A stretch of 64,000 bases of DNA from Comamonadaceae bacterium (lineage in GTDB: Bacteria; Pseudomonadota; Gammaproteobacteria; Burkholderiales; Burkholderiaceae_C). Where the stretch lies: the NCBI GenBank assembly GCA_947456305.1, contig CANGPN010000008.1, positions 1-64,000 of the forward strand, read 5' to 3'. A program made the translations under genes and the position numbers. Below, in pieces: positions 49,926 to 63,584 of the stretch (positions are counted from its first letter, which is position 1; each line of letters starts with the position of its first letter). The notes beneath the pieces are model-generated. The model did no database searches. It had not been told where the DNA came from and worked only from the letters and a program-made list of their open reading frames with translations.

Positions 49926-50983
49926 TTGACGGCTTGCAGTTTGGTTTCTTCCACCTCAGCCGCCAGCAACGGAATATTGAGCGATTCGCGCACTTTGTTT
50001 TCAATCTCGAAAGCCAACTCGGGGTTCTCGCGCAAAAACTCGCGGGAGTTGTCCCGGCCTTGGCCGATTTTTTCGCCTTTGTAGGCATACCATGCGCCGG
50101 ACTTATCGACGATTTTGGCGATCACACCCATGTCGATGATTTCGCCGTGGCGGCTGATGCCCTCACCAAACAAGATGTCGAACTCGGCGGTTTTGAACGG
50201 CGGCGCGACTTTGTTTTTCACCACTTTGACTTTGGTTTCGTTGCCGATGGACTCTTCGCCTTTTTTGATGGTGCCGGTGCGGCGAATGTCCAAGCGAACT
50301 GAGGCGTAGAACTTGAGTGCGTTACCGCCGGTGGTGGTTTCGGGTGAGCCGAACATGACTCCGATCTTCATGCGGATTTGGTTGATGAAGATGACGGTGC
50401 AATTGGTTTTCTTGATGTGCGCAGTGAGTTTGCGCAGCGCTTGGCTCATGAGGCGGGCTTGCAAACCGGGCAATGAATCGCCCATTTCACCTTCCAGCTC
50501 GGCCTTGGGCGTGAGCGCCGCCACTGAGTCGATAACGATCAAGTCGACCGCGCCGGAGCGCACCAGACTGTCGACAATTTCCAGCGCCTGCTCGCCGGTG
50601 TCAGGCTGGCTGATGAGCAAGTCTTGCAAATTCACACCGAGTTTTTGTGCGTATTGCACGTCCAGCGCATGCTCGGCATCGACAAAGGCGCAAGTGCCGG
50701 CCATTTTTTGCATTTCGGCAATGACTTGCAATGTCAGCGTGGTTTTGCCGGAAGACTCAGGACCGTAAATTTCGATGACACGACCGCGCGGCAGACCGCC
50801 CACGCCCAAAGCCACGTCCAAACCCAGAGAACCGGTGGACACGACTTGAATGTCTTCGATGACCTCGCCTTCGCCCAAGCGCATGATGGTGCCCTTGCCG
50901 AACTGCTTTTCGATTTGCGCCAAGGCGGCTTGCAGGGCTTTGGCTTTTTCTCCGGCGGCGGCGATGCTTTTGACGTTGTCCAT
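49922..50983 (-). CDS. recA: Recombinase RecA
   Basis: The strand-exchange protein and SOS co-protease. The 353-aa product has Walker [10 protein letters not shown] at 74-82, the [14 protein letters not shown] signature, and the C-terminal acidic region. AAAGGAG lies 6 nt before the ATG at 50983. A LexA box lies 45 nt upstream, so it is SOS-controlled. It forms an operon with recX. Confidence 0.98.
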
Positions 50984-51027
50984 GGAAAACTCCTTTGATG
51001 TCAATGGTTTGGAAGATTTACACCGGA

Positions 51028-51043
51028 CTGTGTCGAAACACAG
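51028..51043. promoter_or_regulatory. LexA (SOS) box upstream of recA
   Basis: The 16-bp palindrome CTGT-GTCGAAAC-ACAG matches the betaproteobacterial and gammaproteobacterial LexA half-sites exactly. It lies 45 bp from the recA start, where it can block the recA promoter. It would be relieved after DNA damage. Confidence 0.85.
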
Positions 51044-51125
51044 ACTGGATGCATGAACAGTACTTTATCTGCGTTATTAAAACTTGTAAACAGTTTATTT
51101 AGTCAGTTTACCTTACTATATGAAC

Positions 51126-51160
51126 ATGGATTTCAACCTGCTTTCTTCCGCCATAGACTG
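51126..51160 (+). pseudogene. 5' fragment of interrupted MarR-family gene
   Basis: The first 11 codons plus two bases of a MarR-family gene. They read MDFNLLSSAID and match the N-terminus of the intact copy at 57,594 (MDFNLLPSALD). The sequence stops at GACTG, where the Tn7-like element begins. The gene continues at 63,131 after the element; joining 51,160 to 63,131 restores the frame as DWRQSHLGRLLGH. It is divergent from recA and probably shared the promoter interval 51,044-51,125. Confidence 0.88.
51156..51160. repeat. Target-site duplication, left copy (GACTG)
   Basis: GACTG directly precedes the left end of the element and recurs at 63,126-63,130 directly after the right end. Tn7-family elements make 5-bp duplications. 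Only one copy is needed to restore the marR reading frame. Confidence 0.88.
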
Positions 51161-51208
51161 TGCTGAAAGTCATTCAAGTTTGTATTTTGAGTCACTCAAA
51201 TTTGTATT
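51161..51208. repeat. Left transposon end with two TnsB-type repeats
   Basis: The terminal inverted repeat starts at 51,161 (TGCTGAAA...AAGTTTGT). Two 20-bp repeats lie in it, at 51,167-51,186 and 51,189-51,208, 22 bp apart; read on the minus strand both begin AATACAAA and contain TTGA.TGA. They match four similar sites at the right end in the opposite orientation. Confidence 0.8.
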
Positions 51209-51510
51209 TTTTGAACACCCCGTATCAGCCTGCAAGCCAATGGCTACAGGGGTTTAACAATGAATTGCATTTGATTTGAAATCTAACCAAGCTCGGCAAC
51301 GAGTTCATTTGGGGCATTTACTCGGTCACGCCATGCAACAGCAACCGATCGGTTACGGCCTTGAGTTGTCAAGGACCCTTGCCTTAAAGCCATTGTTCAA
51401 CCTTGGATCAAAGCCTGCTAAAGGTTACCTTGTACTAACTATTCGGCCCTAACCTTACCAGCCAACGTTGATCGGTGATCACAGTTTCACTCTCCGCCGA
51501 TCGTAAGGCT
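51209..51510. other. Gene-free left flank of the element with a decayed marR-like segment
   Basis: About 300 bp between the left end and the avs-like gene stop. No open frame is credible. At 51,295-51,340 the DNA resembles the marR region encoding RLLGHAMR: ACTCGG.CACGCCATGC is shared, and about 26 of 34 aligned bases match. It is a third, degenerate trace of the same gene family in this interval. A short TTGATTTGAAAT stretch upstream may be the decayed start of the same fragment. Confidence 0.5.
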
Positions 51511-54500
51511 TCAGGATTGGGATTGGTGATTATTCGATGGCAGGGCCAGTGTCGTCGCGGAAGATGCGAGGTAGTCTCTGAGCTGAAAGGCTAGCGAGGA
51601 TCCTGCGTCTACGAGCCGGTCAAGCACATCGAGCGTCGCCTTTCTCAGGGTGACGTCTCGCATTAGCGCTGGACGGTGCTCATGCACTGCCACACGGCAG
51701 ATGGTCTCCGCATTCCAAAGACAGTTCCCATCATCGAACAGGTCGGATGGGGCACTGCGAATCGCATCTCGAAGCGAAGGTACGGCAGCAGGCACTGCTT
51801 GTGTTTGCCCGATGCCAGCCATTAGGCTAAGCAAGTTTTCTAGTGCGGGCCGGCTGTCCCCTGCTCCCCTGAGGCAGTGCGCAATAAAGTTGGGTCGGCG
51901 CTGCAGAAGGGGTAGGTCGTGCCGCGTATTCAGCCAAGGTACCGAACAAAACAGCAAGGTTCGAAGAACCTTGTCGAACCTGCTATGGGACCGCCTCGAG
52001 CGAGTCCTAAGGGACGGATCGGCAAGGACGATGGCAATGGCTCCATCCCAGACTCGCCAGAATGCTTCAGCGTTCGCGTACTCCTGCTTCATGCTCGCCG
52101 TAAGGGTCGACTCGAGCACTCGTTCGCTCAATTCAGGAGCGTGCTTCAGACAGTAAGCCAGCAGCTCGAAAGCTGGCCCCTCCCTAGACGGCTGCGCCAG
52201 AAGCTCGGAAGCTAGAAGGTCCCCCGTTTCCCAGCGAGCTTCAAAGTCAACATGTTCTGGGTCATGGTGATCGACTCGGGGCTTTCCTTCCTGATCCGCG
52301 ATGAGGCGCACCAGCGGTGAGAGCGCGCTAACCCGCCATGTCCCCGGCGACTCTGTCCTGGCGGCGTCTAGTGCGATCGTCCATTCCTTGGCGGCAACAA
52401 GACTAGTTGGAACCGGCATTTCGCCAGGTTTGCCCTTTGCCAGGGCGCGAAGCAGAGCCTTGACGCTTGCGTCCCGAGCGCTGTCGACCAGATCTCGCCT
52501 TCGGCCACGTGGCTGCGAGATCATCGTCTCCAGGGACTCCGCGTAGTGAGCAAGGCCCCAGGTGAGCACGGCGGCCAGCTCTGGCTGCCGTGCTCTCAAG
52601 ACATCCGAAATGGCATTGGCCGCGGCGCGCCTTACCTTCCAGACCGGTTCGGTGACGATGTTCGCCAGTGCCGTCGGCATGTTGGGCAGCGAGGGGCTTC
52701 TACTCGCGAGTATCACCAAGGTACGAACTCTGAGCTCACCTTCCATATGTCCGCGTCGCGCCCGTGTTTCTTCGTCCGGCTTCTGTGCGGTTGTCTCGAT
52801 AAGGTAGTTCTGGGCCCATTGAAGGGCCTGCGATGAGTCTTCTGGCCAGCGCTGAATCAGCGCGCACGGGAGCTCGTCTTGCAAGCCGATGAGCATTGCG
52901 CTGTCCTCACCGGTGAACTCCTCACGGACCTTCAAGAACTCGTCGTACACCGCCGTCGGGGATGAGAAGCTGTCCGCTCGGTTGGGATCGGAGCTAATGT
53001 CTGGTCTTGTTATCGCGGTTGCCCACAGCCGAATCGCCGACAGCCGGTCCATCCACTGCAAGCGCTCTCCCTCGCGAGCGCTTGCCTGCTGCGACTCAGG
53101 CTCCAAGTTGGCAACTTCAAGGGTCACCGCTCTTCCGCCGTCTACTTGTTTGCCAACCTTCAGCTCCCGAAGATCCATGCGCTTAAGAGCTATGCGCCAG
53201 GACTGAGCGTCCTCTGGGTTCGCCGGCAGGGCTGCCTTATGCTGGTCCAGGATGGCAAAGATCGCATCACAAAGGTCCAAGCGACTCATCTGCAGTTGAA
53301 GCGCTAGGTCTTCCAAGTTGTAGCGTCTGTGCGGGAGTTTCTTGCTTGCAATTCGTTCCTTCTGCCGCTCGCCGTCCAGTCCATCGTGTCCGCCATGTAT
53401 CGCGAGCACCAGCGGTTCTTGCTGGCAGCGGGAAAAGTCGTCGACAAAGAACCACGGGCACTTGAAGATGCCCAGCATCTTCTCTGTGACCAGACTCGGA
53501 TGAGCCGTCATCAGGCTTGCCACCACACTGGTAGTGAAGCTTGAAGTGCCTCGATCGAGGATGTTTTCAAGCGCCTGCTTGAACAGCTCAGGCTGTGGCT
53601 TTGCCTCGAGGAGAAGGCGTTCTTCCAGCGACATCAGAGCACTTTCCCACCACTGAGCGTTGTGGGCAATCGCGTCTTCGGCAAGTTGGACGACCCAGCC
53701 GTGCGCGTCAGACGGCAAGCTCGGGAATGCCTTGGCGACAAGCGCAATCATTACGTCCCACGCTTTGCCTACAGGAGCGGCCATCCCAATGCGAGCCAGG
53801 ATCTCCTCGTTCGCAGGATCGTCAGCAAGCTGTGAGTAGTCGAGGGACGTGGGGCCCTTACAAGCAACCCGCAGCAAGTGGCTTAGGCGTTGAAGCAGTG
53901 CAGCGTTGTTGAAGGCGCCTCTGCTTCCAAGCTTTGCGACTAGTTCTTCCACCCTCTCTGAACGCAGGAGCCCAATGGCGACCTCGTCGCGCCACAGTTG
54001 CGGAATCGCCGGGTCTGGCCTAAGTGCCGCCTGGAGCAACGCGTAAGCGTCTTCATCCCCGACGGCAGACTTCTGGGCCGTCCAGGACCGCAGTGATCGG
54101 CGCATGCCCGCGTGCGAGCCTAGCTTTGCGAACAAGGCCCCCCAGTCCCGTTCAGCAGACCGCACTTCGCGCTCCACGCGAAAGATCAGCGACCAGTCCT
54201 CCAGCACGTCATGGGCAGGTGCTACTCTGTCGGTGCTGTCCCTGGCCAAGACCGAGTCTTGAATGAGCGCAGCCACCGCCTCGGCGTCTGAAGGCGCATC
54301 GACAAACTGCGCGAAGCGGTCAGTGCGCTGATAGCAGACCTCGTCAAAGGCGGCTTGGCGTCTAGTCGCCATCCCTGCAGGGCTCTTGCTGGGTGCAACG
54401 CGTTCCTTCCAGAGATGGCGTCGAAGGTCATTGCCGGAGGCTTGAGGCAGTGTTTCTTGCGCCGCGATGTAGGTAAAGGCCAGCGTCAGGTAGTACGGTG

Positions 54501-55965
54501 CCCTCAGCACCTCACGCACACCAGCGTCTCGGGCGACAGCGTCTTCAAGCGCGCTACCGGCGACCGCAGCGGCGACCTCGGCGTCCGTGAGCGGCGGGAT
54601 ATCGACCACCTGGTGCGCAAGGCTAGAGAGAAAGTTCAAGTAGAGGCTGTTGAGCGCATACGAGCGAGTCGTTACGCATAGCCGTGCCTGCTTGTTTTGG
54701 CGAACGAGGGCCAGCAGTTCCTCGAGTGCCCCGCGATTTCTGCCTTCGAGGATCTTCTCCATGGAGTCGATGACAACGGTGGGCCGTCCTGCGTGCAACA
54801 TCGCAGACAAACTAAGAACCGGATCGGGTAGATCTTGCAGGGACTGAATTGCACCCAAGCTAGGCGCTTCGAGCTCGTCGGCTCGAAAGAAGAAGAGCGG
54901 ACCGGACTCTCGGAGCAGGGGTGCCAGCTCCGAGATAACCGCTGACTTGCCCGCACCCGGGCCTCCGGTCACGATAGCCAGCGGGCGTTCGTCGAGGGTT
55001 GCAAGCAGACGTGCGACGCAATCGCCGCGCGGTATGTGCGCGTCATTGGGAAGCTTGGCTTCTATCATCGACAGCTGCTTAAGTGCACGCTCGCTCATGC
55101 GATCGGCAGCGCTGCCAAGGCCTCGCTGGATGCTCAGGCGGCTCACCATTTCCTGCAGGCCAGCCTTTGCCGTCGAGGGCCAAGTCTGTCGGGTTACTGT
55201 ACCTACCGAAATCCCATTTTCTTGTACATAGGCAAACAATCCGTCCCAGACGCCCTCGCCTGAGTCGCCCGGCTGCCCGGAGGTCAGCAGCGCCTGAACG
55301 AGGCTCAGTTCCTGAGATGAGTCATTTGCTAGGTCGTGAATGTCGACTCGCAGGTGCTGCAGCAGCTCGAAGACAAGCTCCTCGGTGTATTTGTCCCCAA
55401 GGGTGGCCTGAGAAACCGTTTTAAAGGCTGCCCAAGTGTCCCTGTGCTTGCGGTCAAACAGCTTCGACTCCAACTTAAGGAGGAAGTCCGCCAGGTCAAC
55501 AGAGGCTCGGGACAGCTCGCATAGCCGTTTGGCAGCTTGATTGGCTGGGGTCGCGGGCGCGATGGTGGCAATCACCAGCACGTCAAGGCCACGAACGAAG
55601 GGAGTCCCTTCAACCGTCAGGAAGTCTCGCCAGATACCTTGCAGGCTGTCGATGAAGTCAGTGTCACCAGCCGTGGCGTTTAGGCCGCGCTTGCACTGGA
55701 TGAACTGCTGCCAAGTCTTGCCGTTGCGGCTGATCTGACAGTAGATGTCGTCGGTATGGGCCCCGGTATAGCGGGCCTCAAATCGGACGGTTTCGACGCG
55801 GCAGCCATGTAAGCTGAAGGCAGTAGGTAGCCCTGTCAGCATGTTCGCAAGGTAGAGCGCTCCTACGCGGGCCTGGAAGATGCCTCCTCCGCCGCCTGTT
55901 GCGACGGTGCTAATTACTTGAGTGCCCGTAAGAGGGTCGCGCTCAGTTTCTTTCGTCTTGCTCAT
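51511..55965 (-). CDS. Avs-like nuclease-STAND ATPase, putative antiphage protein
   Basis: A 1,484-aa protein with three parts. (1) Residues about 15-240: a putative PD-(D/E)xK nuclease domain of the Cap4/DUF4297 type, with GGGIFQARVGALYLANML (26-43), Glu63, Asp72-Asp73 and the QCK motif (90-92). (2) Residues about 310-620: a P-loop ATPase with Walker A GGPGAGKS (334-341), Walker B VVIDSME (397-403) and VTTRSYAL after it, as in STAND NTPases. (3) Residues about 640-1,484: a long alpha-helical, repeat-like region suited to sensing. This order matches Avs antiphage proteins. The gene is richer in G+C than the A/T-rich DNA around it. Family membership is inferred from motifs only. Confidence 0.75.
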   Translation of the reverse strand: MSKTKETERDPLTGTQVISTVATGGGGGIFQARVGALYLANMLTGLPTAFSLHGCRVETVRFEARYTGAHTDDIYCQISRNGKTWQQFIQCKRGLNATAGDTDFIDSLQGIWRDFLTVEGTPFVRGLDVLVIATIAPATPANQAAKRLCELSRASVDLADFLLKLESKLFDRKHRDTWAAFKTVSQATLGDKYTEELVFELLQHLRVDIHDLANDSSQELSLVQALLTSGQPGDSGEGVWDGLFAYVQENGISVGTVTRQTWPSTAKAGLQEMVSRLSIQRGLGSAADRMSERALKQLSMIEAKLPNDAHIPRGDCVARLLATLDERPLAIVTGGPGAGKSAVISELAPLLRESGPLFFFRADELEAPSLGAIQSLQDLPDPVLSLSAMLHAGRPTVVIDSMEKILEGRNRGALEELLALVRQNKQARLCVTTRSYALNSLYLNFLSSLAHQVVDIPPLTDAEVAAAVAGSALEDAVARDAGVREVLRAPYYLTLAFTYIAAQETLPQASGNDLRRHLWKERVAPSKSPAGMATRRQAAFDEVCYQRTDRFAQFVDAPSDAEAVAALIQDSVLARDSTDRVAPAHDVLEDWSLIFRVEREVRSAERDWGALFAKLGSHAGMRRSLRSWTAQKSAVGDEDAYALLQAALRPDPAIPQLWRDEVAIGLLRSERVEELVAKLGSRGAFNNAALLQRLSHLLRVACKGPTSLDYSQLADDPANEEILARIGMAAPVGKAWDVMIALVAKAFPSLPSDAHGWVVQLAEDAIAHNAQWWESALMSLEERLLLEAKPQPELFKQALENILDRGTSSFTTSVVASLMTAHPSLVTEKMLGIFKCPWFFVDDFSRCQQEPLVLAIHGGHDGLDGERQKERIASKKLPHRRYNLEDLALQLQMSRLDLCDAIFAILDQHKAALPANPEDAQSWRIALKRMDLRELKVGKQVDGGRAVTLEVANLEPESQQASAREGERLQWMDRLSAIRLWATAITRPDISSDPNRADSFSSPTAVYDEFLKVREEFTGEDSAMLIGLQDELPCALIQRWPEDSSQALQWAQNYLIETTAQKPDEETRARRGHMEGELRVRTLVILASRSPSLPNMPTALANIVTEPVWKVRRAAANAISDVLRARQPELAAVLTWGLAHYAESLETMISQPRGRRRDLVDSARDASVKALLRALAKGKPGEMPVPTSLVAAKEWTIALDAARTESPGTWRVSALSPLVRLIADQEGKPRVDHHDPEHVDFEARWETGDLLASELLAQPSREGPAFELLAYCLKHAPELSERVLESTLTASMKQEYANAEAFWRVWDGAIAIVLADPSLRTRSRRSHSRFDKVLRTLLFCSVPWLNTRHDLPLLQRRPNFIAHCLRGAGDSRPALENLLSLMAGIGQTQAVPAAVPSLRDAIRSAPSDLFDDGNCLWNAETICRVAVHEHRPALMRDVTLRKATLDVLDRLVDAGSSLAFQLRDYLASSATTLALPSNNHQSQS

Positions 55966-56865
55966 ATGAAAAAATTTTCGCCACCCTGTGGCACCTCCTG
56001 ATTGACAGGATACAGGAGACAGACATGTTCTTTTGACAAGAACCTCTTAAAAAGGAGGTAAGAATCGCGCCCTATCCGGCGCAGGCCGTTGTCGTTCTGA
56101 TTTTGGATTGTTAGCTGAACTCAACAGCATCAGCATTTGGCAAAGATGCGATTAAGTAAACGACCATACAGCTGCCGATGTACAGCATCGGCTAACGGCT
56201 GATTTTATTCCGTTGGTTCGCCTTACGAGGTAACCGCAAACGCTGCAAACCGTGCGATAAAATGATTCGATTTAGGTCTTATGGGGAAATGGTTAGCTCT
56301 TATGATTAAACGATCTTTTACCTACGCACCAAAGAAATTCGATCTCTCACGATTGCTCTTTTCACTACATTTATCAATGTTTATCCGATCTCCAGCTAAT
56401 TGGGAAATTCCTTGCAACCTATTGGATTGCATTCCAAATTACAACGATTAATTTGAGTCGCCTAAATCTAGTTAGATTCAAGTGACTAACTCAGGAAACG
56501 CTATAGTTTTTTTACGTTTCTGAAACTCTCCTGACAATGTTAAACCCCATGCGAATTTTCGCGACTAAAGTTTGATTTTTTATTTGAACATCGGTGAATT
56601 GGCTAGTAACACTCCTTGACTGACAGTTCGCAAGGATCACTAAGCAGCGAATTTATGGAAGGTAAATGCGGCTAAGCCGCGTTTCAAATAAAAGCTGGTT
56701 ATTCTTGTTGTTCGTCGTGAAAAAAATGATCAATAGCGCCTATGGTGAAGATGCATAAAAATTTTAATAAGAAGCAACTGCGATTAAGGTAGCTTCCGAG
56801 CCTGCTGGTTCTTTTCGACGCAATGTGAATCTTTTAATTAGTATCACCTGGTGCTACACTTAATC
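55966..56865. other. 900-bp A/T-rich gene-free interval upstream of the avs-like gene
   Basis: No credible gene on either strand. It contains an inverted repeat GTTCTT-N5-AAGAAC at 56,027-56,043, about 62 bp before the avs-like start, that could be an operator, and AGGAGG on the minus strand about 25-30 nt upstream of the start codon. The rest is A/T-rich with short imperfect palindromes such as GCGGCTAAGCCGC near 56,668. It may hold promoters for the avs-like gene and the toxin gene. Confidence 0.5.
56027..56043. promoter_or_regulatory. Inverted repeat upstream of the avs-like gene
   Basis: GTTCTT and AAGAAC, exact complements, are separated by TTGAC. The position 62-78 bp upstream of the start codon suits an operator for a dimeric repressor. 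No regulator can be assigned. Confidence 0.35.
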
Positions 56866-57256
56866 ATGCCAATCAATTTGAATCTCCGTGCCTTCAAGAC
56901 CGCCCGGTTCTCTAAGGATGCAAAAAAGACCAAGATCAAGGACGATGAGCTTTGTCTGGCGATTGAGCAAGTTTTGCTGGGTCAGGTTGATGATTTGGGT
57001 GGCGGTGTTTTTAAAAAAACGACTCAATAACAACTTACACCGGTCCATCATTTTGGCCAAAGGCGGCAAGTATTGGGTTTTCGAATACCTGTTTGCCAAA
57101 CAGGATCGTTCAAACATTGAAAACGACGAACTACTTGCGTTTCGCCTTTTGGCCAACAGTTATGCGGGTTTGACTGTGCTGCAGGTTAACCAGTTGCTTC
57201 TTAACAAAGACTTTGTGGAGATTTGTCATGACAACAAAAAAGAAATTCAAAAGTGA
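56866..57256 (+). pseudogene. RelE/HigB-family toxin gene with a frameshift
   Basis: The first frame reads MPINLNLRAFKTARFSKDAKK... to GGGVFKKTTQ and stops after 54 codons. The next frame continues NNNLHRSIILAKGGKYWVFEYLFAKQDRSNIENDELLAFRLL to 57,256, the expected rest of this COG4737-type RelE toxin. The break falls in a run of seven A at 57,013-57,019; removing one A joins the halves as GGGVFKKRLNNNLHRSI. The gene is therefore either inactivated, switched by slippage, or misread in sequencing. It overlaps the antitoxin gene by 29 nt. Confidence 0.8.
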
Positions 57257-57551
57257 TGCCTTCGCGGCCATCCATGCCTCTGCTGCTGCCTTGCAAAAGG
57301 TAGGTGCAATTGACCAAACCACGATGCGCCAGTTTGATGAATCTTGTCTGACCGTGCCATCTACACTGGCTCCTAGCGAGATCAAACATATCCGTGAGCA
57401 AGCACATGTCAGCCAACCGGTGTTTGCCAGATACCTCAACACCAGCGAATCCACTGTACAAAAGTGGGAGTCCGGCAGCAAACAACCCAGTGGAATGGCC
57501 CTCAAACTCTTGGCCGTAGTCCAGAAGCATGGCCTGAGTGTGTTGTCCTGA
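57228..57551 (+). CDS. XRE-family antitoxin (HigA-like)
   Basis: A 107-aa protein with a lysine-rich N-terminus and a C-terminal helix-turn-helix: LAPSEIKHIREQAHVSQPVFARYLNTSESTVQKWESGSKQPSGMALKLL, typical of HigA-type antitoxins that follow RelE-like toxins. The ATG at 57228 lies inside the end of the toxin gene, so both are one operon. It would bind the toxin and repress the shared promoter. It is intact although the toxin frame is broken. Confidence 0.87.
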   Translation: MTTKKKFKSDAFAAIHASAAALQKVGAIDQTTMRQFDESCLTVPSTLAPSEIKHIREQAHVSQPVFARYLNTSESTVQKWESGSKQPSGMALKLLAVVQKHGLSVLS

Positions 57552-57593
57552 ATGTTTAAGCCGACTGGCTTTCGCCCTCATCCCAATTAAGTG

Positions 57594-58100
57594 ATGGATT
57601 TCAACCTGCTTCCTTCAGCCCTAGACTGGCGCCAATCGCACCTGGGTCGGCTGCTCGGCCACGCCATGCGCCGCTTTGACGAGCGGGTGCTTTACCTCAT
57701 GGCACACAACGTGGATGTTCCATTAGCGCTGTCCAATCTCGCATCCCGTGCACAAATAAGCGCGGCACATATCCACATCACGCGTCACTTGAGTCTTGAA
57801 GGCTCGCGTTTGATAGACCTTGCTGAAGCTGCAGGTATGACCAAGCAATCGATGGGGGACTTGGTCACCCAATGCGAAGCATGGGGATTGGTACAACGAA
57901 CGCCTGACCCAAGTGATGCTCGGGCACTACGCATTGTGTTTACCGAAACAGGGTTGGCATGGCTTCACGCCTTTGAGCAAGCTGTGGCTCAAACTGAGGC
58001 GGAATTTCGTCTCGAAGTTGGCGACGACGTAGCCACCGTCATTTTCCTAGGACTTGAGGCCTATGCCGGCGCATACACAGGGCAAATCTCTGGCAACTAA
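57594..58100 (+). CDS. MarR-family regulator, homologue of the interrupted gene
   Basis: A 168-aa winged-helix MarR protein starting MDFNLLPSALDWRQSHLGRLLGHAMRRFDER. The recognition region is VSAAHIHITRHL-like, followed by LAEAAGMTKQSMGDLVTQCEAWGLVQR and the wing. By eye it is about three-quarters identical to the product of the split gene at 51,126/63,131. The element thus carries an intact but diverged copy of the gene it destroyed. The upstream DNA is not similar to the native promoter region, so expression may differ. The ATG at 57594 is chosen over an adjacent GTG. Confidence 0.88.
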   Translation: MDFNLLPSALDWRQSHLGRLLGHAMRRFDERVLYLMAHNVDVPLALSNLASRAQISAAHIHITRHLSLEGSRLIDLAEAAGMTKQSMGDLVTQCEAWGLVQRTPDPSDARALRIVFTETGLAWLHAFEQAVAQTEAEFRLEVGDDVATVIFLGLEAYAGAYTGQISGN

Positions 58101-58346
58101 ACAGCGTATGTGGAACGTAGACCACTCAAAAAAATTTATACCAAATTCCCATTTCTATTCGAAAAATATTCGATTGAAAAATTTCTGTTTTTTCGTCGTA
58201 AGTCATTGATAAATAACAATATATGGTGTTGCAATATCGCAACTTTATGCCCTCAATATATATATTTAAGACAAAGTTTAATCAAATATCAATTGATTTG
58301 AAATTATTTAGTTTTAATTTCTTTAAATTTTTTTTAACATTGTGTG
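58101..58346. other. A/T-rich gene-free interval
   Basis: About 245 bp, very A/T-rich (ATATATATTTAAG, repeated TTTAAATTTTTTTT). It separates marR from the gp16-like regulator. Short open frames here have no recognisable features. It could hold the regulator promoter. Confidence 0.45.
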
Positions 58347-58643
58347 ATGCAAAGTCCACACATAGACATAGAACAAATTGCCCGCATCAAAAAATTGTTC
58401 CTATTGAACGGGACAAGCTATAGCGATTGGGCCAAAGAACACCAAGTTAACAGAGCCATTTTGTATGCCGTGCTAAGCGGTAAATGTCGTTGTCATAGAG
58501 GGGAAGCTCACAAGATTGCGGTCTTGCTGGGCTTAAAGCCCCAAAGCACAGCTTTGCTAGAGGAAGGGCTGGGTTCTCCCCCGAAAGCCTTAGGTAACGA
58601 TCTAGCCGGCGTAATGCTTAAACGGGGCACTCAACAAGCCTGA
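58347..58643 (+). CDS. Small DNA-binding protein, BcepMu gp16-like
   Basis: The 98-aa product resembles the phage-associated BcepMu gp16 group: IARIKKLFLLNGTSYSDWAKEHQVNRAILYAVLSGKCRCHRGEAHKIAVLLGLKP is a lambda-repressor-like HTH in which the N-terminal half is the conserved family segment. It lies upstream of the TnsA-like gene, where it could repress transposition genes as early repressors do in Mu-like phages (inference). The ATG at 58347 follows an in-frame GTG. Confidence 0.75.
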   Translation: MQSPHIDIEQIARIKKLFLLNGTSYSDWAKEHQVNRAILYAVLSGKCRCHRGEAHKIAVLLGLKPQSTALLEEGLGSPPKALGNDLAGVMLKRGTQQA

Positions 58644-58860
58644 AGGGCTAGATGGCCCAAATATTTAGCGTTCAGCTTTCAAACAAATAAATAAAGGAAA
58701 AACCCATGTAAAAAAACAAACGCCAACCACCCTTTCGAATGATCGGCGTTGCCAGCAACGAGTAAACATTGCCTAGGATTAGTGTCCCATAGGTAAATTT
58801 TTACTCTAGTTGGTAGCGGTGTCAAGTCTCGCCCTTACGTTTCTGCAACACAGAAACGAA

Positions 58861-59547
58861 ATGGACTTATCCTCCCAATTGGATTTAAAAATGAATCGTA
58901 AAGTAATAACAGGATCCCCGCACCGCGAGGTGGGGCTGATAAATCCTCGGTGGTTGATTGACCACCCAATCCATCACGAATCCCACCTTGAACGTCGCTT
59001 TGTCATGGCAGCACTTGCTTGCCCTGTAGTCACGGACATCGTTCATCAACCCATCAAAGTTGCACTAGAAGCTGGCAAAACTTACACGCCTGATTTCTAC
59101 ATTGAATTTGTAGATGGCGATGGCGTTTACATCGAAGTCAAGCCTACAAAGTTTTTGCCCAAGCACAAACAAACGATTGAAGCGGCAAAAAACGCTCTGG
59201 CCAAGCAAGGCAAAAAGTACTTGGTCATCACCGACGCAGAGATTGACCGTGACGGGTTGGGAAAGCGAGCAATCTTGCTCATGCGATACGCCCGCATGCA
59301 ATTGGATTCAGAAACCGTCAACCACTGCATCAGTTTGGTTGAAACGATGGCAACCCAAGACCCAACCCTCAGGGAGCTTTTAGCGGAAGGTCTGAGTGAA
59401 GCCGAGATCTGGAACCTTGTCGCGCGGCACGAACTGCGCATCCCGCCAGGCATTCACCTTGAAGCGAATACGCCTGTGTCAATTAACAATCAAAAGGAGA
59501 ACTGCTATGATCAGCTACGCGCGTGGTTTGGTATTGAAGCACGGTGA
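58861..59547 (+). CDS. tnsA: TnsA-like transposon endonuclease
   Basis: TnsA cuts the 5' ends of a Tn7-type element so that it leaves by cut-and-paste. The 228-aa product has the nuclease core: ESHLERRF (Glu44), TPDFYIEF (Asp78) and YIEVKPTK (Glu92, Lys94), matching the E-D-K set of the TnsA PD-(D/E)xK fold. A C-terminal helical domain follows. The ATG at 58861 fits the family N-terminus; an ATG at 58891 is possible. The gene overlaps tnsB by 41 nt, as in many tnsAB pairs. Confidence 0.83.
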   Translation: MDLSSQLDLKMNRKVITGSPHREVGLINPRWLIDHPIHHESHLERRFVMAALACPVVTDIVHQPIKVALEAGKTYTPDFYIEFVDGDGVYIEVKPTKFLPKHKQTIEAAKNALAKQGKKYLVITDAEIDRDGLGKRAILLMRYARMQLDSETVNHCISLVETMATQDPTLRELLAEGLSEAEIWNLVARHELRIPPGIHLEANTPVSINNQKENCYDQLRAWFGIEAR

Positions 59548-60763
59548 CCGCCTGATGGTATTCAAAAACAAATTGGACGAACATCGTATCCAGTTTGAGT
59601 ACACAGACAATGGCCAGTACGTCACCGAGACCATTGGTGAGAACTACCGAGCGATTAAAAGCGGCAAATACACCCTGTCGCAGTCCCCTCTTGTTCCGAT
59701 AGGCAAGAAAGATGATGAAAAGTTTGTCACCTTGCCATCCCACATACCGCCAAAAAAAGAGGCCGGTGTTGCGTACAAAAACAAATTCATCAGAGCCGCT
59801 ATCAGAGAAAAGATTCCTGCCTGCTCGCTGCCCAAGCTGCGAGTAATGATTGAGCGTGTCTACGCAGAAATTCAGGCAAGCGAAAGTCGTGAGTTTCAAC
59901 ATTTCCCAAAACGATCGCCTTCAGCAGTTCGTGAATGGGTCCGCACCTACAAGAAAAATGGGTCAATGGCCTATTCGGTCGTGGATAAGCGAGGCATCAG
60001 AAAAGCTCAAAGACGAATAGCCTCCAAAGTCAATGACTTACTCGACGAGCTGCTTCAAAAGCACTATCTCAAGCCAAGGGGTGAAACGGTACGCTCAACG
60101 CACCGGCTGTTAGAGCGTGAAATTCGTGCAATCAATATGAACGAGGGAGAGGATTTGAAATGTCCATCACTCAGCACGCTAAATCGTCGTGTTCAAGAAC
60201 TCCCGAAGATGCTTGTTGATCGCCATCGATATGGTTCGGCCTACGCAAAAAACAAGTGGCGCTACAGTATGCATGGTGACCAGAGTACCCGGATCATGGA
60301 GCGCGTCGAGGTTGATCACACCATGCTCGATATTTGGATCCTTGATCCAATTACTGGGCTTCCTCTGGGTAGGCCATGGGTCACGATCCTGATTGACCGG
60401 TATTCGGGCTACATATTGGGATTGCATGTGAGCTTTTACGGCCCCTCAGCATCCACGATCGCCAGCGCATTGCGGATGTCCATTGAGCCTAAAGATCTGT
60501 TGTGCCAAGCAATTCCTGGACTTCAAAATTCATGGACTGTTTACGGTGTTGCAGAGCTTTATGTGATGGACAACGGCAAGGAAATGCACTCGCATCGATT
60601 CCGCCGAATTGGCTGGGAGTTGCAAACAGACTTCGTCTACAACCCAGTTCGTCAACCTTGGCTTAAGGCCTCGATTGAGCGAACGATGATGGAGGTCTGC
60701 AGAATCCCCTTTCTGCACACGACGTCCAACGATGACTTCGACATTGGGCTCGATCAGCAATGA
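59507..60763 (+). pseudogene. tnsB: TnsB-like DDE transposase, 3' truncated
   Basis: TnsB binds element ends and joins 3' ends to target DNA. Only 418 residues remain, against roughly 600-700 for full TnsB. AAGGAG lies upstream of ATG 59507. The N-terminal DNA-binding helices and the RNase-H core are present, with Asp270 in VEVDHTMLDI, Asp355 in VMDNGKEM and Glu391 in KASIERTM. After about residue 395 similarity stops: the frame runs into the 3' end of an opposing gene and halts at 60,763. The whole C-terminal domain that contacts TnsC and TnsA is missing. All catalytic residues are present, but the protein is probably inactive. Confidence 0.85.
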
Positions 60764-60922
60764 CTCGTTGGCCAAATCGCAGTCGTGGCTGATGACAACC
60801 ACACACGTTGAGTCAGGCGATTCTGGATGCGAAAACCCAAATGCTATAGCGGCTTCAGGCGTGAGGAGATGGCCCTGACGCCAAGGCGTTTCTCTGGTCC
60901 AAGTTGCTTCCGCGCCTCCCAT
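60700..60922 (-). pseudogene. Gene encoding HDCDL-motif protein, 3' truncated by the tnsB junction
   Basis: The minus-strand frame begins at 60922 and reads WRQGHLLTPEAAIAFGF... then VVVISHDCDLANESLLIEPNVEVIVGRRV. The VISHDCDLA motif with EP.VEVI.GR is a pattern I associate with small uncharacterised proteins in accessory regions. Around 60,700-60,730 the sequence turns into the reverse complement of tnsB, so the real 3' end is lost; the frame is open to 60,530 only because it shadows tnsB. It lies 5 nt downstream of the HTH gene stop, so it was the third gene of that operon. Confidence 0.6.
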
Positions 60923-60927
60923 CTCGC

Positions 60928-61575
60928 TCAGACATTCTCATTGAGGGCAGGATGGCCCATCTCTGCAACATCAGGGCGTGAGGAGGATCTGTCGCCTAGT
61001 AAAGCATCAAGTTTTGCCCGTGCGGATTCCCCACGCTTCTCTAACCGAATGAGCTTTTCAGCGCTTTCCTTACCATCGGCACCTTGCCCAATGAGTTCAA
61101 TGAATGACTTTCCACGGGCGACGGTTCGATCAAGCGACAGAGCGGTTGGCTTGAACCCGGCTTCAATAAAAACTCGTGCTGCTGCAGCAAGATGTACAAG
61201 TTTCCCTTGATGCGCCTCTTTGGGGATCTCACCGTTCAGCCAGTTGTAGAGCGTTTGACGTGATACACCGAACACTGCTGGCAAGTAGGACATGGTCCGA
61301 CCAAAACCAGCTTTGACTTCCTTCATCAGTTGCGTGTACGGGGCGTACATTTCCCGCACAGTCGTTGACTCCATCTTCAAAATCACGAAGGGGCTGTAAC
61401 CTTGACGCGACATTGCGAATTGCACGCCTTCGATCCCACCGGTGCCGCTGCCTCCAAAATAGGGAAGAGGTCGACCTTCAGCCATGGGCGCACGACTGTG
61501 AATGGCCGGTACTGACCGATAGTGAGGGTAAGCGTTGAAATCAGCAACGAGAACTGCAAGTCCGAGCATGATCAC
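60928..61575 (-). CDS. HTH protein of the TIGR04255 cassette
   Basis: A 215-aa product starting with GTG, overlapping the upstream stop by GTGA. The N-terminal 70 residues have no recognisable domain. Residues about 94-118 form a helix-turn-helix, FGVSRQTLYNWLNGEIPK, followed by helices with AAARVFIEAGFKPTALSLDRTVARGKSFIELIGQG and a coiled-coil-like end. The second half resembles DNA-binding antitoxin-like proteins in layout. It is coupled to the TIGR04255 gene. No function is assigned. An ATG at 61569 is an alternative start. Confidence 0.7.
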   Translation of the reverse strand: MIMLGLAVLVADFNAYPHYRSVPAIHSRAPMAEGRPLPYFGGSGTGGIEGVQFAMSRQGYSPFVILKMESTTVREMYAPYTQLMKEVKAGFGRTMSYLPAVFGVSRQTLYNWLNGEIPKEAHQGKLVHLAAAARVFIEAGFKPTALSLDRTVARGKSFIELIGQGADGKESAEKLIRLEKRGESARAKLDALLGDRSSSRPDVAEMGHPALNENV

Positions 61576-62357
61576 TTGTCCCAGGTGGTAAAAGCATGAG
61601 GCGTGGCCGTGGCCCTAAATGCAGCGCCGATGACCTTATGGATAGTATCAAGGTGTTCGGTAACGACCTTCGTCGAAAACACTTCTCGACCGTCCACGAA
61701 GCCATCGTTGTCGAGGATCGCGCTGTTTCCAATGTAAGACGTAAATCTTTCCGAAATCCGCATGTCCCCAGGCTGGATGTCTGGAGGGAATGCGAGAGAG
61801 CCTTCCTGAATGGCGACTCGGCTTAACAGCTTAATGTTTCCGATCTCGTTCATTGCCTCGGTAAAAGCATAAAGGGGCCGTCCGGCGAGCCGTGCATTCA
61901 TCCCCTTGGCTTGATCGACGAGGTACTGCTCTATCGTTTCGCCAGCTTGCGGCATTACTCGATCTAGGTAGCGGAGGCCAACGCGTTCAGTGAATGCGAG
62001 CTTCACTGCGTCATTAACGATGCTCAGTGCCTCCAAGAAGCAGGCAGAAAAGGCTTCGAAATGACCGTAATTGGTCGACTGAAGAGTGAGGCTCTGCTCA
62101 TCAAGGATGAATGTGTGCGTCTTTTCAACATTGCCGAGCAGGAATCTTTCCTGCTGAACAGGCGTTGGAGTTGGAGGTTGTCCGTCTTGGGCAGTGATCT
62201 GGATCGAGATGAAGTTCTGACGTTCGAAGTCGGGATAGCCCGCCTGACGAAGACTCTCTTGGATGCCGGGCAAGAAATCGCCAAGCTTCAAAATAGGGTT
62301 GAACCGCACCTGGGCCAGGGTTAGATACACAGGCGGATTCTTGAGTGGGGTTCCCAT
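61572..62357 (-). CDS. TIGR04255 family protein
   Basis: The 261-aa product matches the sporadically distributed TIGR04255 family. It begins with PLKNPPVYLTLAQVRFNPILKLGDFLPGIQESLRQAGYPDFE, has FILDEQSLTLQSTNYGHFEAF, and VGLRYLDRVMPQ in the middle. No enzymatic motif is visible and the function is unknown. It is the first gene of a minus-strand operon with the HTH gene and the truncated HDCDL gene, and is divergent from the 82-aa gene at 62,468. The patchy distribution and location in a transposon suggest a defence or stress role, which is unproven. Confidence 0.78.
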   Translation of the reverse strand: MGTPLKNPPVYLTLAQVRFNPILKLGDFLPGIQESLRQAGYPDFERQNFISIQITAQDGQPPTPTPVQQERFLLGNVEKTHTFILDEQSLTLQSTNYGHFEAFSACFLEALSIVNDAVKLAFTERVGLRYLDRVMPQAGETIEQYLVDQAKGMNARLAGRPLYAFTEAMNEIGNIKLLSRVAIQEGSLAFPPDIQPGDMRISERFTSYIGNSAILDNDGFVDGREVFSTKVVTEHLDTIHKVIGAAFRATATPHAFTTWDK

Positions 62358-62389
62358 CGTTTGACTACCTTCAATTTTTAGCTTCGTTA

Positions 62390-62409
62390 GTTTACACTAC
62401 GGTTTACAC
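62390..62409. promoter_or_regulatory. Direct repeat of GTTTACAC in a divergent promoter interval
   Basis: GTTTACAC occurs at 62,390-62,397 and 62,402-62,409, 12 bp apart, roughly one helical turn. It lies in the 110-bp interval between the divergent TIGR04255 and 82-aa genes. It may be an operator for the HTH protein of the cassette. Confidence 0.4.
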
Positions 62410-62467
62410 TTGAACAATGCCCCCTCAGTCAAAGTCTTATCGGTCACCATTAAATCAAGGAGTCGCG

Positions 62468-62716
62468 ATGTCCAAGAACACCAAGCAGACGTCTACACGG
62501 ATCGGCCAACTGGCGTCGGAAACATTACAAAGGAGCAGTGCTTCACAAGTAGCCAAGAGCTTGGCTGCTTCGGCTTTGTCTCAGCGAAATGGGGACAGGC
62601 AGACGGGAGCCAAAATGGAAGATACAGCAGCACGAGTTCTTGCCAGCGACTACTACGCTAAGGCCACGAAGGTACTTGCCGCATCGGTCCTGTCTCAAGC
62701 AAACAAGCAGCGCTGA
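62468..62716 (+). CDS. 82-aa protein with internal duplication
   Basis: A small basic protein with AAGGAG 5 nt before the ATG at 62468. It is built from two similar 27-residue blocks, 15-41 and 53-79, that share the pattern KxLAASxLSQxN at their ends. It is helical and soluble by composition, with no membrane segment and no known motif. It is divergent from the TIGR04255 gene and could be a regulator, antitoxin or structural partner of that cassette. Function unknown. Confidence 0.7.
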   Translation: MSKNTKQTSTRIGQLASETLQRSSASQVAKSLAASALSQRNGDRQTGAKMEDTAARVLASDYYAKATKVLAASVLSQANKQR

Positions 62717-63125
62717 GTCATTCGTCACAAGAGCCTGATGTCGCTGACTTGAACAAATCGCGGCATCTCTGCCCCCTTGGAGTCGAAATTCAAATGAACT
62801 TGGCTTTGATTGTTGGCTAACTTCTGATATTTGGGCAGTTATGGTTTGGCGCCATTGGCCGAGAGCGGCCTTGCTGCGCCCATTGATGATCAGATGCTCA
62901 TGTTACATAGCTTACTTCTAAATAATTACTGGAACAGACTGCTTTATATGAATTGATGATGTAGGTGCAAGCTTCTTAAAAATACAAACTTGAATGAAGT
63001 AAAACTGAGAAAATACAAAGATCAATGACTCTTTGACACAAGCTCTAATGAGCAAGAACGACATAAATATATATAAATCAATAACTTATCAAAGTCTCAG
63101 ACACAAACTTAAGTGAATTTCAGCA
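62717..63125. other. Gene-free right flank of the element
   Basis: About 410 bp between the 82-aa gene and the end of the element. It contains the four right-end repeats and the terminal inverted repeat (listed separately). The first 250 bp hold no open frame of note. Confidence 0.6.
62981..63125. repeat. Right transposon end with four TnsB-type repeats
   Basis: Four 20-bp sites start at 62,981, 63,012, 63,035 and 63,100; the best read AATACAAACTTGAATGAAGT and GACACAAACTTAAGTGAATT. All point the same way, and oppose the two left-end sites. The element ends with TTTCAGCA at 63,125, the complement of the left TGCTGAAA. Two sites at one end and four at the other recall the unequal ends of Tn7. 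Confidence 0.8.
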
Positions 63126-63130
63126 GACTG
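63126..63130. repeat. Target-site duplication, right copy (GACTG)
   Basis: Identical to 51,156-51,160 and directly next to the right end of the element. In the uninterrupted gene only one GACTG exists, as shown by the intact copy at 57,594, which reads TAGACTGGCGCCAATC. Confidence 0.88.
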
Positions 63131-63584
63131 GCGCCAATCCCACTTAGGCCGTTTGCTCGGCCACGCCATGCGTCGCTTCGATGAGCGTGTGTTGGAGTTG
63201 ATGGCCCAGCATATTGATGTGCCATTGGCGCTGGCCAATCTGGCAGCGCGCGACAAGGTCAGCGCAGCGCACATTCACATCACCCGGCATTTGCCGTTGA
63301 ACGGCGCACGCTTGAGTGAATTGGCCGACATGGCGGGCATGAGCAAGCAAGCCATGGGAGATCTGGTGACGCAATGCGAAGCCTGGGGTTTGGTTAAGCG
63401 CGAAGCCGACACGCTGGATGCGCGCGCTAAACGCATTGTGTTTACCGCTGACGGACTGGATTGGCTACGCGGTTTTGAACAAGCGGTGGCTCAGGCCGAA
63501 GAAGAGTTCCGGCAAGAAGTGGGTAATGACGTTGCTACCGTGGTCAGCCTCGGTCTGGAAGCCTATGGCAATGCCTATCGTTAA
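63131..63584 (+). pseudogene. 3' part of interrupted MarR-family gene
   Basis: Joined to the 5' fragment it encodes a MarR protein of about 161 residues, with GHAMRRFDERVLELMAQHIDVPLALANLAARDKVSAAHIHITRHLPL and the HTH LADMAGMSKQAMGDLVTQCEAWGLVKR. No stop or frameshift is present in this part, so the break by the element is the only visible lesion. An in-frame ATG at 63,168 could still give a shortened protein lacking the dimerisation helix start. It lies upstream of a response regulator gene. Confidence 0.87.

Follow-up and report, generated by a model that had tools for sequence, protein, structure and literature searches.

The choice of target by Tn7-like transposons is usually explained as a way of avoiding the inactivation of host genes (PMC11406308, accessible part). 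Tn7 itself, whose site attTn7 lies at glmS, inserts downstream of this gene and leaves it intact, and the conserved coding DNA to which its selector binds is about 25 bp away from where it inserts (PMC2918618, accessible part). Insertion inside a conserved coding gene has also been described, for Tn6022/Tsy in comM; comM is disrupted in that case, which is discussed as a loss of function, and the accessible part of the source does not mention a carried comM copy (PMC10293859). The cargo of Tn7-like transposons usually includes defense and toxin-antitoxin genes (PMC8649781, accessible part).

We analyzed a stretch of 64,000 nucleotides (hereafter the window), which belongs to contig 8 (127,890 bp) in the draft assembly (2.59 Mb, completeness 86.9%) of a freshwater bacterium with a Limnohabitans-type genome, G000. 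It contains a Tn7-like element that shares with Tn7 a 5-bp target duplication, several end repeats, TnsA together with the catalytic part of a DDE TnsB, and a family found on both chromosome and plasmid; unlike Tn7, it interrupts its target gene and carries a copy of that gene. Some phage and island integrases rebuild the 3′ portion of the gene that they target; there too, the element supplies what the insertion cuts off, but these enzymes are site-specific recombinases that act through att-site homology and not DDE transposases. In the literature that we searched, most of it freely accessible, we found no Tn7-like element that carries a replacement for the gene it targets, and none inserted in marR.

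A Transposed Element Inside the recA-Adjacent marR

Besides sucC, recX, and recA (minus strand), the window holds a response regulator gene and a MarR frame split between 51160 and 63131 by a transposed element of 11,965 bp (Table 1). The preliminary description had delimited this element to the base, and its borders are confirmed: GACTG occurs at 51156–51160 and again at the other border, and is single in relatives; the outer inverted repeats match at 20 of 23 positions; 51126–51160 joined to 63131–63584 reads as one MarR frame. It had also proposed a search for the empty site, which we carried out by aligning the joined flanks (100 + 100 nt) to seven relatives. The flanks align across the junction in all seven, without gaps for G008 (168/200) and G099 (163/200), with gaps for G094 (171/201), G072 (161/201), G016 (158/201), and also G007 (153/200); for G090, the alignment starts only at base 72 (104/130). 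With up to 3 mismatches, the end motif occurs twice in the G000 genome, in both cases at the element borders, and the inverted ends, each with a terminal repeat and with three inner motif copies between them, appear to carry the several repeats resembling transposase sites that are typical of Tn7-like elements. By the direction of the tns genes, we take the left end in the window to correspond to the right end of Tn7.

Table 1. Features of the interrupted marR and of the element within it (window positions).
Feature	Coordinates	Strand	Remarks
Native marR1, first codons left of the insertion, ending in GACTG	51120–51160	+	
Transposed element	51161–63125	.	
Left end: terminal repeat 51161–51183 and second motif copy 51187–51207	51161–51207	+	
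Left-end leader and decayed marR scrap (51306–51336)	51190–51336	+	Homology to G041 plasmid element
STAND NTPase, 1484 aa	51511–55965	−	Partial Avs4 match
HigBA-like toxin-antitoxin pair	56867–57551	+	Antitoxin 57213–57551 intact; toxin frame in two frames
marR2, complete second marR, proposed replacement gene	57591–58100	+	
Small HTH protein, BcepMu gp16 family	58344–58643	+	Homologue also before tnsA in G176 and G735
tnsA	58810–59547	+	PF08722
tnsB, truncated	59507–60763	+	Homology to full-length TnsB stops at 60706, past the catalytic domain
Segment joined to the cut tnsB	60707–62716	.	ORFs 60530–60922 (−), 60928–61575 (−), 61572–62357 (−, TIGR04255 family), 62417–62716 (+)
Right end: motif copies 62979–62997 and 63010–63028, terminal repeat 63103–63125	62979–63125	−	
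Second GACTG (63126–63130) and remainder of native marR1, without start	63126–63584	+	

The transposition module is incomplete. TnsA (PF08722 at 5.3e-9) looks whole and aligns with the TnsA proteins of two genomes of the same family, G176 and G735; the catalytic part of TnsB matches solved TnsB chains (1.1e-35) and relatives, with homology to full-length TnsB (659–662 aa) ending near residue 400, so that about 250 C-terminal residues are missing and the sequence continues into an ORF of the opposite direction. Using TnsC and both TniQ proteins of G176 and G735 as queries, we obtained no tblastn match at E ≤ 0.01 in the 64-kb window. Since TnsC and a TniQ/TnsD selector are without match there, in contrast to Tn7, the element reads as a decayed, defective Tn7-like derivative and not as a complete member; the label “Tn7-like” given beforehand is borne out by tnsA, the ends, and the duplication, with the qualification, absent from that first account, that the element is defective. 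Without tnsC and tniQ, and with tnsB cut short of its C-terminal part, it could be expected to move only with help in trans, and we found no autonomous member of the family.

No tnsB relative was found in the other 83 genomes of the genus, nor a close one in a scan of genome contigs. The nearest came from a sample of 399 genomes of the order and one of 399 genomes of the family (G176, 42%; G735, 44%), and the 4604 plasmid records that match are each below 60% identity. The Tn7-like elements of G176 and G735 resemble ours in tnsB (42–44%), in tnsA (42–50%), and in the gp16-like HTH gene before tnsA, but they differ in having a complete tnsC and two TniQ proteins, with no marR within the 60 kb and 40 kb examined. 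The G176 element (C1:597354–617001) is a complete Tn7-like element near groES that carries tnsABC and two TniQ proteins, with a CTAAT target duplication (5/5) and 19/20 inverted ends. As a side observation, the distance from the recA start codon to the tnsA-upstream end is 178 bp in the window (50983–51161), and that from the groES start, as read, is also 178 bp in G176 (C1:597176–597354), which, with n = 2, may be a coincidence.

The STAND NTPase is possibly anti-phage cargo, judging from its Avs4 match (NCBIfam 4.5e-89, scoring 299 bits where the cut-off is 1500; PADLOC 5.8e-82). The toxin frame of the HigBA-like pair (56867–57256) is split in the window and whole in its G091 homologue (L109 3529–3900), and the antitoxin is 95% identical to one found elsewhere in G072. 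As a marker of the element, the antitoxin was rejected: 22 of the 84 genus genomes match it at E ≤ 1e-15, off the recA/marR contig except in G000 and G091.

marR Copies and Element Ends Across the Genus

Our survey of the genus covered 84 genomes, G000 included. A strong marR match was found in G000 and in 72 others; the recA start lies on the marR stretch in 66 of these 72, divergent from marR in all 66, and is absent from it in the remaining 6. The recA–marR spacing is 140–225 nt in 60 of the 66 and longer in six (G004, G010, G045, G070, G003, and G098). For G010, G070, and G045, the long gap is a repeat-like spacer with no element end seen, and the gap of G004 (306 nt) equals theirs. The other 11 genomes, 9 of which are less than 90% complete, gave no marR match (nine) or a weak one only (G051 and G013). 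Across the family, marR is kept in 231 of 399 genomes at E ≤ 1e-30.

Second marR copies of at least 60% identity, contig-edge pieces aside, occur only in G000, G041, and G058 among the 84 genomes, and all three sit within elements bounded by these ends; G073 and G045 have contig-edge marR pieces only. Outside this set, the second copies of the two-marR genomes G621 and G635 are 46% and 44% identical, and the second match of G771 is a 74% piece at a contig edge.

The end motif itself, with at most 1 mismatch, is present in 5 of the 84 genomes: G000, G041, and G058 have it as an inverted pair, G091 and G098 as a single copy. The G041 (3.2 kb) and G058 (5.6 kb) elements occupy the same plasmid place and represent one shared insertion, outside marR; plasmid NZ_AP027057.1 of Limnohabitans sp. 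TEGF004 matches the G058 element region at the same place. Their border 5-mers match at 4 of 5 positions (ACTGG/GCTGG and GCGGG/GCTGG). Both elements hold marR without tnsA or tnsB; the G058 element also has a fragment resembling TniQ (35% over 65 aa, E 4e-8), of the kind found in G176 and G735, which would tie it to Tn7-like machinery. In both, the marR copy starts with GACTGG, about 107 bp in from one end, and reads inward, with AAGGA and a possible start codon just before. These copies are about 79% identical in DNA to their hosts' own marR and therefore probably arrived with the element; both are frameshifted, and the chromosomal marR of both hosts is intact. We also observed that the right end of the G041 element (L105 6662–6750) aligns with the inner repeat 62979–62997 of the window, 128 bp from the true border, as if the window end had been extended or the G041 end shortened.

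A second kind of trace was found beside recA. In G098, recA is followed by a first-codon stub of marR and then by the left end and its leader; next come a toxin-antitoxin pair, a complete marR, and the response regulator. The pair is, as read from its sequence, of another kind than in the window, and the 45 nt before the complete marR match those before marR2 at 35 of 45 positions. We infer that G098 is a scar, the rest of the element having been lost by recombination between the carried and the native marR. G024 repeats the leader, toxin-antitoxin pair, and marR of G098 at the end of a contig; its recA is at the end of a different one. In G091, an element end is found close to recA with a run of several toxin-antitoxin-like genes behind it (2548–7338 of contig 94, L109), and marR is on another contig beside unrelated genes; a TniQ match in this genome (E 0.006) is too weak for use. 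G003, where a toxin-antitoxin pair and a sequence matching the end motif at 17 of 23 positions lie between recA and marR, is suggestive of a further scar of the family. A toxin-antitoxin pair stands directly upstream of marR, in the same direction, in three lineages (window 57213–57590; L107 of G098; L220 of G003), the pairs being of different kinds; in this position, it might supply a promoter or addiction.

Weaker end matches were set aside. Those with 3 mismatches (G041 C1, G061, G063, G072, and G077) show no similarity around them to element ends or marR, and we attribute these five to chance because a reversed control pattern gave 2 matches in the 84 genomes. One in an Enterobacteriaceae-labelled contig (L118) falls at the start of an unrelated regulator-like gene, and none was found in viral contigs.

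Origin and Role of the Carried marR

The most telling feature of the element, absent from the preliminary description, is that it carries a copy of the gene it interrupts, marR2, together with a marR scrap near its left end. The marR2 protein is 75.0% identical to marR1 and at most 85.4% identical to the MarR of other genus branches, whereas marR1 is 95.4% identical to its G008 counterpart; on these identities, marR2 is no duplicate of marR1 and comes from another genus branch. A DNA tree of 32 rows groups it with the G041 and G058 plasmid copies, with weak support (95/64). The scrap belongs to a stretch that matches the left end and the beginning of marR in the plasmid element of G041 (74.8% over 147 nt, E 4e-22). 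In G099 (L092), where recA is 99% identical to that of the window, marR is closer to marR2 (81.6% in amino acids) than that of near relatives (about 74–76%), as if part of marR had been exchanged.

A second marR is thus present in each of the three two-ended elements, which represent two independent insertions, and a family end stands at the same marR place in G098 as in G000. The carried copy is intact where the native marR is cut (G000) and broken where the native gene is whole (G041 and G058), and a complete marR is present wherever the element cut marR (G000 and the scar in G098). The reading that we favor, with a probability of roughly 0.6, is that members of a Tn7-like lineage insert into the marR beside recA and bring along a marR of their own, by which the host retains a MarR protein; the carried gene would then replace the lost function. 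Few independent cases stand behind the replacement reading; the weak tree grouping, the lack of marR in the stretches covered around the tns modules of G176 and G735, and the lack of a tnsB relative in the other 83 genus genomes also weigh against it.

The most serious alternative, which we nonetheless consider unlikely, is that marR is mere cargo, captured by recombination around the recA–marR locus and without selected role, marR2 being a neutral xenolog. The broken plasmid copies and the scrap at the left end agree with this, as does the recombination of toxin-antitoxin genes and marR at this locus in G098 and G003. Against it, marR2 is intact with low pairwise dN/dS (0.044–0.110 in 14 of 19 pairs, with dS high, near saturation, and five pairs not computable), and chance capture does not account for the finding that, within the genus, extra marR copies are confined to one end family and are present in both of its independent insertions. 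Against the replacement reading, the beheaded marR1, with a dN/dS of 0.026 to G008, has not decayed, so the insertion may be recent and its cost uncertain, or the remnant may still act.

Still less probable is an untargeted insertion into marR, with marR2 gained later because the loss of marR was costly, and no strategy on the part of the element. No selector gene is left in the window and both plasmid elements lie outside marR, as one would then expect, but the scrap indicates an earlier marR in the element. The preliminary description had offered either a new target preference or a random insertion. In-gene insertion has a precedent in comM (PMC10293859, accessible part), the carried replacement being what is new with respect to the literature searched. 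A purely random insertion is a poor fit, given that G098 has an end of this family at the same marR place and G091 has one near recA. A target specificity for marR is what we infer from these ends. That the carried MarR serves the element instead of the host, for example as a tns repressor, is very improbable: marR2 does lie upstream of the HTH gene and tnsA in the same direction, but the tns modules of G176 and G735 have a gp16-like HTH gene and, in the stretches covered, no marR, the carried copies are close to the host regulator over their whole body, and the elements of G041 and G058 have marR but neither tnsA nor tnsB.

If the lineage does target marR and compensates for it, the insertion would occur at the point where the conserved part of the MarR protein begins, a site presumably chosen by a TniQ-type selector that has since been lost. 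Mean DNA conservation in 70 marR genes is 0.33 bits in the 20 nt before GACTG versus 1.43 in the 20 nt from GACTG on; as native N-termini vary between genomes, the start of homology of the carried copies at GACTGG may just mark the start of conservation. In the older arrangement, seen in the G041 and G058 plasmid elements, transcription from the native marR promoter, which stays ahead of the insertion, would pass through the left end and reach, about 107 bp inside, a marR copy with its own putative ribosome-binding site; a promoter scan ahead of the left end recognized none and was uninformative. In the window, the end-proximal copy would have been reduced to a scrap, and marR2, behind the toxin-antitoxin pair, would have taken over.

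Implications for Target Choice and Regulator Exchange

Put more broadly, and tentatively since we rate it slightly below an even chance, a branch of Tn7-like elements would home inside a conserved coding gene and pay with a replacement transcribed through its own end; this replacement would decay on plasmids and be kept in the chromosome, past insertions leaving exchanged marR genes and toxin-antitoxin scars beside recA. If true, a transposon that breaks a conserved regulator gene but supplies a spare would be a different solution to the problem of harm to the host, and the range of possible attachment sites would be widened. The case also provides a search rule for other such elements, namely to look immediately within a transposon end for a second copy of the host gene that is broken. 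For the hosts, these insertions would open a route by which a recA-adjacent regulator is exchanged between species.
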